Of a stretch of 41,514 nt of DNA, positions 3,336 through 37,108 are shown piece by piece. This stretch comes from an uncultured Nitrospirota bacterium (GTDB taxonomy: Bacteria > CG2-30-53-67): NCBI GenBank assembly GCA_947259355.1, contig CAMYMF010000035.1, forward strand, positions 1-41,514. The letters are read 5' to 3'. Position 1 is the stretch's first letter; the number at the start of each line of letters is the position of its first letter. The translations under genes and the position numbers were made by a program. The notes beneath the pieces were generated by a model that was not told the DNA's origin, ran no database searches, and saw only the letters and a list, made by a program, of their open reading frames with translations.

Positions 3336-3668
3336 ATGGAAGCCAGGGCTGTTGCCAGATATGTGAGAATCGCACCGAGAAAGGTGAGGCTGGTGGTGGA
3401 CGCTATTCGCGGAGAGCGCGTGGAGAGCGCCTTGAATATTCTGCGGAACTTGCCGCAGCGCGCCGCACCGGTGGTGGAGAAAGTGCTCATGTCGGCGGTG
3501 GCGAACGCCGAGCAGCAGGAAGTCTCGGATGTGGAAAAACTGACGGTCAAGGAGGCCGTCGCGAACGGGGGGCCCATGCTCAAGCGCTTCATACCCCGGG
3601 CCATGGGGCGGGCGACCCCGATTCACAAACGGACGAGTCACATCACCATCGTTGTCTCCGACGGGTAG
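3336..3668 (+). CDS. rplV: 50S ribosomal protein L22
   Basis: L22 (uL22) has a globular domain on the subunit surface and a hairpin that lines the exit tunnel next to L4. The 110-residue product shows the N-terminal [14 protein letters not shown] motif and the beta-hairpin [18 protein letters not shown] near the C-terminus. The ATG follows a GGAGAGCGAG Shine-Dalgarno. A 51-nt gap separates it from rpsC. Confidence 0.97.
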
Positions 3669-3719: not shown

Positions 3720-4318
3720 TTGGGACAGAAAGTGCATCCGATAGGGTTCCGGCTCCGATATACTAAGGACTGGAATTCGCGGTGGTATGCGAGGAAGGAC
3801 TACGCGGCGCTCTGTCACGCGGACCTCGAGCTGCGCAAGTACATCAAAGAGAAGCTCTACCACGCCGGTGTCGGTCGGGTGGAAATCGAGCGTGCGGCAG
3901 AGTGGTGCGGACGCTTTCGCGCGCCAGCCCCATCGCCGGAAAGAATATCTATCTCAATATTCGCGAGATCCGCAAGGCCGAGATGGAGGCACAGCTCATC
4001 GCGGAAAACGTGGCGCTGCAGCTGGAACGACGGGTGGCTTTCCGGCGTGCCATGAAGAAGAGTGTCATGAGCGCGCTGCGCTTTGGTGCCAAGGGGATCA
4101 AAATTCAGTGCGCCGGACGACTGGCCGGCGCGGAAATGGCGCGCACCGAATGGTACCGCGAGGGGCGGGTCCCGCTGCACACCCTGCGCGCCGACATCGA
4201 CTACGGCCTCGCGGAGGCACTGACAACCTATGGTCTCATCGGGGTGAAGGTCTGGGTCTTCAAGGACGAGATTCTCAATCCGGACAAACAGCGGCGCACC
4301 GGCACTACACTGGGGTAA
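3720..4318 (+). pseudogene. rpsC: 30S ribosomal protein S3, broken by internal loss and frameshift
   Basis: S3 (uS3) is an essential 30S head protein with a type II KH domain at the mRNA entry site. The TTG start (3720) is supported by GGAGGAGGTGA at 3704-3714. Residues 1-60 ([12 protein letters not shown] to VEIERAA, through 3899) are normal. S3 then resumes in another frame from about 3900-3935 ([12 protein letters not shown], then [14 protein letters not shown]) and ends at TAA 4316-4318. Compared with E. coli S3, about 64 nt are missing, including the RPGIVIG strand and GXXG loop of the KH domain. The frame change fits a loss of 3n+1 nt. All neighbours are intact, so a small assembly deletion is the simplest explanation; a real lesion would require another rpsC copy. 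Confidence 0.9.
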
Positions 4319-4344: not shown

Positions 4345-4761
4345 ATGTTAATGCCCAAGAAGGAGAAATATCGGAAGCGGCAGAAAGGTCGAATCCGGGG
4401 CAACGCCAAAGGCGGCACCAGCATCGATTTCGGGGAGTATGCCCTGCAAGCGCTGGAGCCGGGTTATATGACCAGCCGCCAGATCGAAGCGGCCCGAATC
4501 GCCATCACCCGGCACGTCAAACGGGGTGGCAAGATCTGGATCCGTGTCTTTCCCGACAAGCCCGTGACCAAGAAACCGGCGGAAACCCGAATGGGAAAAG
4601 GCAAGGGCTCGCCCGAAGGGCATGTGGCCGTCATCAAACCGGGCCGGATCCTCTACGAGATGGAAGGAGTGCCCCTGGACATTGCCCGCAGTGCCATGCG
4701 CTTGGCGGCCCACAAGCTTCCGTTCAAAACCCGATTTCTCAGCAAGCACGGAGGCGATTAA
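4345..4761 (+). CDS. rplP: 50S ribosomal protein L16
   Basis: L16 (uL16) organises the tRNA A/P region of the 50S subunit. The 138-residue product begins [16 protein letters not shown], the normal N-terminus, and contains GRKGxPEG-like [17 protein letters not shown] plus the [13 protein letters not shown] helix. The start ATG 4345 is chosen over ATG 4351 because family members keep the leading M-L/x-P. It is followed 3 nt later by rpmC. Confidence 0.97.
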
Positions 4762-23234: not shown

Positions 23235-24005
23235 ATGGACAAGGTCGAAGAACGCCCCAGGGGCATCTATCTTCTGCCCAACGTCTTCACCACCGGCAAT
23301 CTGTTTGCCGGTTTCTTTTCCATCATTGCCTCCGTGAATGGCGAATACGAGAAGGCGGCCGTTGCCATCCTGATCGGCGGGATCTTCGATGCCGTCGACG
23401 GGAAGATCGCCCGCTGGACACGCTCCACGTCGCGCTTCGGCGTGGAGTACGACTCGCTGTCCGACTTGGTGACCTTCGGCATGGCCCCAGCCATTCTGAG
23501 CTTCCTCTGGGCCCTCCAGCCCTTTGGGCGCGTCGGTTGGCTCGCAGCCTTCGGTTTCGTGGTGGCCGGGGCCTTTCGACTGGCTCGGTTCAACGCCAAT
23601 GTGGATGTGGTGGACAAGCAGTACTTCGTGGGGCTCCCCATCCCGGCAGGGGCCGGGGTGATTGCCACATCGGTTCTGGCCTACCACCAGCACTTCGGGT
23701 ACTCCGAGACGGACAAACCCTTCTGGTTCGTCGTGGTGGTGCTGGGTGTCGCCTTCCTCATGGTGAGCAATATCTCCTACTACAGTTTCAAGGATATCGA
23801 TTTGCTCAAGCGGCGGCCCTTCAAGATCCTGGTTTTTCTGGTTCTGGCGGCGCTCGTCATCGCGGCCCGGCCCGAAACCTTTCTCTTCCTGCTGGCGGTC
23901 TCCTATGCCCTGTCGGGACTGATCCAGCGGATTCGGCACCGAAAGAGCATAGATGTGCTTGACATCGACGATGAGGATGTAGTAAAAGAGGACGAACGAC
24001 CATGA
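23235..24005 (+). CDS. pssA: CDP-diacylglycerol-serine O-phosphatidyltransferase
   Basis: PssA makes phosphatidylserine from CDP-diacylglycerol and L-serine in the inner membrane. The 256-residue product has several membrane helices and the exact CDP-alcohol phosphotransferase motif D55-G-x2-A-R-x8-G69-x3-D73-x3-D77. It lies 28 nt after ilvC and its stop overlaps the start of the T-box leader. Placement between ilvC and leuA is also known in related bacteria. Confidence 0.94.
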   Translation: MDKVEERPRGIYLLPNVFTTGNLFAGFFSIIASVNGEYEKAAVAILIGGIFDAVDGKIARWTRSTSRFGVEYDSLSDLVTFGMAPAILSFLWALQPFGRVGWLAAFGFVVAGAFRLARFNANVDVVDKQYFVGLPIPAGAGVIATSVLAYHQHFGYSETDKPFWFVVVVLGVAFLMVSNISYYSFKDIDLLKRRPFKILVFLVLAALVIAARPETFLFLLAVSYALSGLIQRIRHRKSIDVLDIDDEDVVKEDERP

Positions 24006-24260
24006 AGAGGAGTAGTAGGGGCGGGCCTCGCTCCAGAGAGCCGGTGGTGGGTGCGAACCGGTGCGGGGAACCCCGAACTCGCCTCGGAGTCGCGGGGGTG
24101 AACACAGGACGCTAGCCTCCGCCGGGTGGTTCCCGTGAGTGAACCGAAATGAAGGGCGCCCGATGCAGCGCAGGGCGCCGAATCAGGGTGGTACCACGTG
24201 GGCAAGAATCGGACCCTCGTCCCTGGCTGAACGGCAGGCTTGAGACGAGGGTCTTTTTTT
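24003..24260 (+). promoter_or_regulatory. T-box riboswitch, leucine-specific, controlling leuA
   Basis: A T-box leader senses uncharged tRNA and allows readthrough of a terminator. Stem I starts with GAGG (24007-24010) pairing to CCTC (24082-24085). An AGTA loop-E element (24011-24014) faces the specifier loop GAACTC. The specifier codon is CTC (24078-24080), Leu. The distal part has AGAGAG and the CCGGT/ACCGG stem (24041-24061) with the conserved apical loop. GGCGCCC (24155) pairs with GGGCGCC (24173). The T-box proper AGGGTGGTACCACG (24185-24198) has TGGT, which would pair with an ACCA tRNA end, in agreement with tRNA-Leu A73. No strong promoter lies within it, so it may act on transcripts from ilvBNC-pssA. 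Confidence 0.95.
24212..24260 (+). terminator. Intrinsic terminator of the leuA T-box
   Basis: GACCCTCGTC (24212-24221) pairs perfectly with GACGAGGGTC (24244-24253) and is followed by seven Ts (24254-24260). Its position directly after the T-box sequence fits the alternative terminator that forms when tRNA-Leu is charged. leuA starts 34 nt downstream. Confidence 0.95.
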
Positions 24261-24293
24261 CTGTAGTTGCACCGTTAGCCAGAAAGGCTCACC

Positions 24294-25835
24294 ATGGACG
24301 ACAGGGTCCGCATTTTCGATACCACCCTGCGGGACGGCGAGCAGTCCCCGGGCTGTAGCATGAACATTGACGAGAAGATTCGCGTGGCGCGCCAATTGGC
24401 CGCCCTGCAGGTCGATGTCATCGAGGCGGGGTTTCCCATCGCCTCTCCCGGGGACTTTGAGGCGGTCCGGGAGGTGGCCCGCAAGGTCGAGGGCCCCATC
24501 ATCTGCGGACTGGCCCGGGCTGTGGAAAAAGATATCGACCGGGCCTGGGACGCGGTTCGGGAAGCGAAACATGCCCGCATTCACACCTTCATTGCCACCT
24601 CCGATCTGCACCTGCAGTTCAAGCTGAAAATGAGCCGGGAGGTGGTGCTGGAGCGGGCCGCATGGGCCGTGGCCCATGCGAAGCGTTACACGGAGGATGT
24701 TGAGTTTTCCGCAGAAGACGCGGCACGTTCCGACGTCGATTTCCTCTGCCGGGTGGTGGAGGCCGCCATCGGTGCCGGCGCCAACACGGTGAACATCCCC
24801 GACACTGTGGGGTATGCCATCCCGGAGGAGTTCGGTCGTCTCATCGCCACCCTCCGAGAGCGGGTCCCTAATATCGACCAGGCGGTCATCAGCGTGCATT
24901 GCCACAACGATCTGGGGCTGGCGGTGGCCAACTCGCTGGCCGCGGTGCGCAACGGTGCCCGTCAGGTAGAGTGCACCGTCAACGGATTGGGTGAACGGGC
25001 CGGCAACGCGTCTCTGGAAGAGGTGGTCATGGCGATACGGACGCGGCGGAACCTCTTCGGGTTGCACACGAATGTGCGCACAAAGAAGATCCATCAGAGC
25101 TCCCGTCTGGTCAGCGACATCACCGGCATGGTCGTTCAGGCGAATAAGGCGGTGGTCGGGGCCAACGCGTTTGCCCACGAGTCAGGCATTCACCAGGACG
25201 GTTTTCTCAAGAAGCAGGAGACCTATGAGATCATGACGCCCGAGTCCATCGGCCTGTCCCAAAGCACGCTGGTGCTCGGGAAACACTCTGGCCGCCACGC
25301 CTTCCGGGCGCGGCTGGAGGAGATGGGGTATCACCTCAGTGAAGCGGAGACCAACCGGGCCTTCGAACGATTCAAGAGCCTGGCCGATGCCAAGAAAGAG
25401 ATTTTCGACGAAGACATCGTTGCGCTCATTGCCGACGAAGTCTACCGAATCCCCGACATCTTTGAACTGGAGGAGATGGAAGCTCACAGCGTCACCGGAC
25501 AGCCGCCCCGGGCGCGGGTCCGCATGCGGGTCGACGGCCAGATCCTGGAGAAAGCGTCAACGGGCGACGGCCCGGTAGACGCCGTCTACTCAGCCATCAA
25601 GCAGATCACCGGTTCCGAATCGCCGCTGGTGGGATACTTCGTCAAGGGCATCACCGGCGGGACCGATGCCCAGGGTGAAGTCACCGCCAGAGTTCAGGAG
25701 GGCGACCAGATCTTCATCGGCCAGGGTGCAGACACCGACATCATTGTCGCCTCCGCGCGGGCCTATGTGAATGCCTTGAACAAGCTGGAGCATTGGAAGA
25801 GAAAGAAGGTTAAAGATGAAAACTCAAAGATCTAA
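24294..25835 (+). CDS. leuA: 2-isopropylmalate synthase
   Basis: LeuA condenses acetyl-CoA with 2-oxoisovalerate, the first committed step to leucine. The 513-residue product has the catalytic TIM-barrel start [13 protein letters not shown] (8-20) and the metal-binding HCHNDLG (His202, His204). [14 protein letters not shown] and HESGIHQDG are also present. The C-terminal regulatory domain (about 390-505) is the site of leucine feedback in this family. The last residues (KVKDENSKI) are encoded by an AAAGAT-rich repeat-like stretch. AGAAAGG precedes ATG 24294. Confidence 0.97.
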
Positions 25836-36327: not shown

Positions 36328-36921
36328 ATGAACTTCGTCAAGGAATTCACCAAAGGTCTCTGGAAGGAAAACCCCATCCTCCGGCTGCTGCTTGGCATGT
36401 GCCCCACGCTGGCCGTGACGACGAGCGCGATCAACGGTCTCGGCATGGGATTGGCCACCCTGGCTGTGCTGATCTGCTCCAATCTGGTGGTCTCCCAGCT
36501 GAGGAAAATGATTCCCAAGAAGGTCAGGATTCCGGCCTTCATCGTTGTGATCGCCTCCTTTGTCACCATGGTCGATCTGACCATGAACGCCTTCGCCCAT
36601 GACCTTCACAAGTCCCTGGGTCTTTTCATTCCGCTGATTGTGGTGAACTGTCTGATACTGGGGCGGGCCGAAGCCTTTGCCTCCAAAAAACCGCTGTTGG
36701 GCTCCTTTGTCGACGGGCTCGGGATGGGCATCGGTTTTACGCTCGCCCTCGTGGTGCTCGGAAGCATCCGGGAGGTTCTCGGCAACGGAACCATCTTCGA
36801 CGTGGCCCTGTTCGGCAAGGGATTCCTGCCCATGATCGTCATGATCCTCCCGCCGGGCGCTTTTATCATGCTCGGTTTTCTGATGGCCGGCATGAACCGG
36901 ATCGACAAAGGGATTTCTTAG
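36328..36921 (+). CDS. rnfE: Rnf complex subunit RnfE
   Basis: RnfE is an integral membrane subunit that, with RnfA, forms the inverted-repeat core of the complex. The 197-residue product has six hydrophobic segments and the signature LGMCPTLAVTTSAINGLGMG, with the conserved Cys expected to bind Fe-S. It ends KGIS and its TAG stop (36919-36921) is the first three bases of a repeat element. rnfA and rnfB should follow but are absent here. Confidence 0.96.
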   Translation: MNFVKEFTKGLWKENPILRLLLGMCPTLAVTTSAINGLGMGLATLAVLICSNLVVSQLRKMIPKKVRIPAFIVVIASFVTMVDLTMNAFAHDLHKSLGLFIPLIVVNCLILGRAEAFASKKPLLGSFVDGLGMGIGFTLALVVLGSIREVLGNGTIFDVALFGKGFLPMIVMILPPGAFIMLGFLMAGMNRIDKGIS

Positions 36922-37108
36922 CCCGAATATTGCTTGAGCGATCGTGACGAGAGGCCCCATAGGTACTGGAAGCGCCACAGGCAAGGCACAGAAAATTTGC
37001 TGGCTGAAGGCATATTGCAATATTTCGAAGTCAGGAAATTCTCTGTAACGCCGCAGGGGGCAGCTTATTCGGCCGCGTAATAGATTGACTCATTCAATAT
37101 TCGGGCGA
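36919..37108 (+). repeat. MITE-like 190-bp inverted-repeat element after rnfE
   Basis: The left end TAGCCCGAATATTG (36919-36932) is matched at the right end by CAATATTCGGGCGA (37095-37108), its reverse complement at 12 of 14 bases; TGAG two bases further in also matches. Inside is a nested dyad: CAGAAAATTT (36989) with AAATTCTCTG (37036), CTGGCT (37000) with AGTCAG (37029), and a central perfect palindrome ATATTGCAATAT (37012-37023). All three pairs share a centre near 37017. There is no long reading frame, so any movement would need outside enzymes. Confidence 0.8.

Follow-up and report, generated by a model that had tools for sequence, protein, structure and literature searches.

Does rpsC in this window encode a KH-less ribosomal protein S3, or is an ordinary gene broken in the sequence as deposited? 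The window (the whole stretch of DNA analysed, 41,514 nt) corresponds to contig C35 in a draft assembly that totals 3.12 Mb in 94 contigs, with 89.7% completeness and 2.8% contamination; these values and the fragmentation suggest that the genome is metagenome-derived. No 16S was found, and the best matches of the ribosomal proteins among named organisms are distant and mixed (51-75%). rpsC occupies positions 3720-4318 and is broken at 3899-3940, with its halves in different frames. The S3 sequence reads normally from a TTG codon at 3720 through VEIERAA (3899) and picks up again at KNIYLNI (3941) in a frame one base earlier, which runs to a stop at 4318; in the list of open reading frames (ORFs), the two open frames overlap (3720-4055 and 3782-4318). 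In Pfam searches, Ribosomal_S3_C (PF00189) is matched in the second frame only (131 bits) and KH_2 (PF07650) in neither frame, and the ORF of the N-terminal part matches no Pfam domain. The rpsC gene of the sister genome G001 has KH_2 at 76.7 bits as well as Ribosomal_S3_C. A functional uS3 gene is expected to be a single open frame with both domains and a GXXG loop in the KH domain: here, two frames and no KH_2 are found, and the loop is missing. The initial annotation, which had reported a disrupted rpsC with a frame change and no GXXG region of the KH domain, is borne out in these respects. It had also placed the resumption of S3 at AGKNIYLN; the change of frame is correct, but the resumption starts at K, because AG is part of a 42-nt patch that separates the two halves (Table 1).

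Table 1. Coordinates of the rpsC parts, the patch and the neighbouring genes in the window
Feature	Position	Strand	Evidence
rplV (L22), intact neighbour	3336..3668	+	ORF list; aligned gap-free from 3487 (G001 contig coverage)
rpsC 5′ part: S3 N-terminus to VEIERAA, intact, TTG start	3720..3898	+	tblastn, dN/dS
42-nt non-homologous patch, shifts the frame	3899..3940	+	family alignment, shuffles, uniqueness searches
rpsC 3′ part: S3 C-terminal domain, intact, frame one base earlier	3941..4318	+	Pfam, tblastn, dN/dS
rplP (L16), intact neighbour	4345..4761	+	ORF list; 96% amino acid identity to G001 in one frame

Both parts of rpsC are well conserved. Compared to G001 using tblastn, the 5′ part shows 92% and the 3′ part 98% amino acid identity, and the dN/dS ratios against the same genome are 0.05 upstream of the break (59 codons) and 0.024 downstream of it (124 codons). 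Judged by these ratios, both parts are under strong purifying selection; a ratio of 0.024 therefore implies that translation of the 3′ part as S3 continued until very recently, or continues now. The S10-spc operon in the window has the usual gene order, and the flanks of the break are syntenic with G001 and 86-87% identical to it, a level typical of the contig, as is expected if the sequence on either side of an assembly error is correct. The flanking rplV and rplP are sound, in agreement with the initial annotation.

The reference used to measure the break was G001, the closest genome compared, which belongs to the same genus and shows approximately 87% DNA identity along the contig. Matching bases end at 3898 and begin again at 3941; the interval between them spans 106 nt in G001 and 42 nt in the window, which amounts to a net loss of exactly 64 nt (the tblastn anchors are 102 nt apart in G001 and 38 nt apart in the window). 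An absence of about 64 nt had been proposed previously: this is accurate as a net figure, but not as a description of the event, which is a replacement and not a plain deletion. The replaced segment corresponds to 35 codons and comprises the remainder of the KH_2 domain, including GXXG. Following a plain deletion, the 42 nt would be expected to show about 86% identity to the G001 segment, at one of its ends or at both. Instead, the best split onto these ends yields 13 matches out of 42, compared to 12.7 (s.d. 2.5) for shuffled patches; because no split beats shuffled sequence, a simple 64-nt deletion is ruled out.

The patch is equally unlike the KH segments of the 77 S3 genes with which it was compared. 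Its DNA score against these segments is 12.0 (equalled by 62% of shuffles) and its protein score is 24 (equalled by 25%). As a positive control, pieces of the G001 segment score 19.5-30 as DNA and 52-74 as protein, well above chance even with the family excluded. By eye, a stretch of 14 residues in the second frame recalls VRxTIxTARPGIxIGK, but a degenerate remnant of the KH strand was rejected, as a quarter of the shuffles score equally at the protein level. Relative to the expected segment, then, the 42 nt are shuffle-like: a stretch unexplained by local sequence evolution, as an assembly error would produce.

A source for the 42 nt was not found in the window, the rest of the genome, the relatives or plasmid sequences. 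Inversion or local copying was rejected, as comparing the patch with the window gave no meaningful match (at best 11 nt, E 0.26). A 10-nt inverted repeat, in which 3934-3943 pairs with 4038-4047, may, given its length, be a chance match. A copy from elsewhere in the genome was likewise rejected: with up to 3 mismatches allowed, neither the patch (40 nt of it) nor either of its halves occurs a second time. At the same threshold, the 30-nt core of the patch is absent from 40 other genomes (relatives). Plasmid origin was rejected on chance-level matches, with a best E of 0.2 among the matches listed.

The KH segment is uninterrupted in the alignment of all five family members (G001-G005), which are 93-99% complete and have exactly one rpsC each. 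In 39 of 40 relatives, rpsC lies in a long open frame (at least 210 amino acids, compared to 183 in the window); the only relative with no rpsC match is a genome that is just 59% complete. The canonical GXXG is kept in 76 of the 77 other S3 proteins, including those of all family members. The remaining protein (L004, contig C1 of the distant genome G017) has ARKG in its place (LLIARKGAEV), in a KH domain that is otherwise complete. A second distant genome, G033, has a normal rpsC and four extra weak Ribosomal_S3_C matches on contigs C17, C18, C56 and C60 (open frames of 274 amino acids), perhaps an unrelated repeated gene.

No break comparable to that of rpsC was observed in the rest of the window when compared with G001. 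When 841 kb of the genome were set against 1.04 Mb of G001, 129 genes were comparable, and rpsC alone is split into two well-conserved halves that lie in different frames. In the other flagged genes, a weaker stretch (65-69%), N-terminal or upstream, precedes a single intact frame, and the flagged pairs are read either as such stretches or as shadow frames. Assembly-wide decay is ruled out, because the other genes compared with G001 are unbroken.

The genome was also searched for another rpsC, a check called for in the initial annotation. Using Ribosomal_S3_C, KH_2 and the whole intact S3 of G001 as queries, no second copy was found in the 3.1 Mb of this 89.7%-complete genome. The queries retrieved both rpsC halves and one other KH_2 protein of approximately 319 amino acids on contig C26, which from its size is probably Era. 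Loose fragments of an S3 KH domain are similarly absent from elsewhere in the 94 contigs. A pseudogene would be accompanied by an intact rpsC, and none is present in the searched sequence, about nine tenths of the genome; as approximately a tenth is missing, a second copy is still conceivable there.

On the basis of these comparisons with relatives, the break is very probably a local assembly error in an otherwise ordinary gene: it is present in the sequence as deposited but most likely not biology. The organism would have an ordinary single-copy rpsC, approximately 106 nt of which would have been dropped at a bad join in the draft assembly; the gap would have been bridged by 42 nt of misplaced consensus, a patch presumably without read support, and the frame shifted thereby. 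This explanation is favoured because a single-copy essential gene with selected flanks is interrupted by one unique, unrelated stretch in a fragmented draft. The initial annotation had left a choice between an assembly error involving a small deletion and a second rpsC. The unique patch and the normal flanks argue for the error, with the deletion amended to a replacement, and against the second gene stands the result of the genome search. Two points count against an assembly error: no source of the 42 nt was found, and the assembly is otherwise clean, with one broken gene among the 129 compared, so errors of this kind would be infrequent in it. In metagenome assemblies, local errors take the form of a short consensus stretch supported by no read; 13 were found in one 1.13-Mb genome, and public databases are left with incorrect protein-coding genes as a result (Chen et al. 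2020, PMC7111523).

The main rival to an assembly error is a real and recent lesion, in which a deletion was sealed with filler DNA and an intact rpsC resides either in the tenth of the genome that the assembly lacks or in other cells of the same population. Repaired double-strand breaks can show a segment replaced by short filler, which is the anatomy observed here, and the incompleteness of the genome leaves room for another copy. However, such a lesion is unlikely, though possible: no family member has more than one rpsC, no KH fragment of S3 survives elsewhere in the searched sequence, selection on the 3′ part dates the break as recent, and a single-copy essential gene that is broken in the consensus would need the lesion to have been fixed in the population. 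Still less probable is a chimeric join, inside a conserved region, to S3 sequence from a different organism. Conservation among ribosomal genes is high enough to allow cross-species assembly joins, but the identity of both flanks to the same genus is at its usual level and the patch is unlike the KH segment of any of the S3 genes compared. Least credible of all is that the gene is functional in its present form, with a frameshift or two separate products yielding a KH-less (or split) S3 and a new form of the small subunit: both frames are open and overlapping and the C-terminal domain is intact, but this reading is very unlikely because the 35 lost codons are beyond any recoding and the same-genus sister has a normal KH domain, and it is further opposed by the near-universal GXXG loop and by the N-terminal ORF without a Pfam domain.

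An S3 without a KH domain would, if true, be very surprising. As biology, the break in rpsC is probably of no importance, and its value is as a caution for annotation and for ribosomal-protein phylogenies. S3 serves as a standard marker both in such phylogenies and in estimates of completeness; an error of this type puts a false truncated protein into databases.

Two other features of the window were observed. At 36919-37020 is a dispersed repeat of approximately 95 nt that adjoins genes. It has 36 matches in its own genome (itself counted), of which about 25 are near full length and 75-83% identical; an 80-nt part of it is present in approximately 30 copies in G001. No Rfam family matches this repeat at the gathering score; it may represent an intergenic element specific to the family. 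At 23993-24227, a T-box leader (RF00230) scores 94 bits against a cut-off of 93 and is located upstream of leuA (2-isopropylmalate synthase, 24285-25817); ilvC and a pssA-like gene come before leuA. Firmicutes are the best-known hosts of T-boxes, and one here would be less common if the organism is not a Firmicute.

Comparison with known systems places this locus as follows. Like genes under programmed ribosomal frameshifting, the window rpsC consists of two overlapping frames of one gene. Unlike them, it would not yield the full conserved product after a shift: 35 codons have been replaced, so the known S3 protein would not result (the initial annotation had likewise held that a programmed frameshift could not restore the missing residues), and the family members, all single-frame, show no such arrangement. 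Relative to bacterial uS3 (KH_2 plus Ribosomal_S3_C), the window gene differs in having no KH_2 and halves in different frames, and agrees in its N-terminus and C-terminal domain, which are normal and 92-98% identical to those of G001. The errors described by Chen et al. (2020, PMC7111523) were shown by the lack of any supporting read, whereas here we infer the error from relatives; in both cases, a short consensus stretch at one site breaks a gene whose sequence is correct on both sides.
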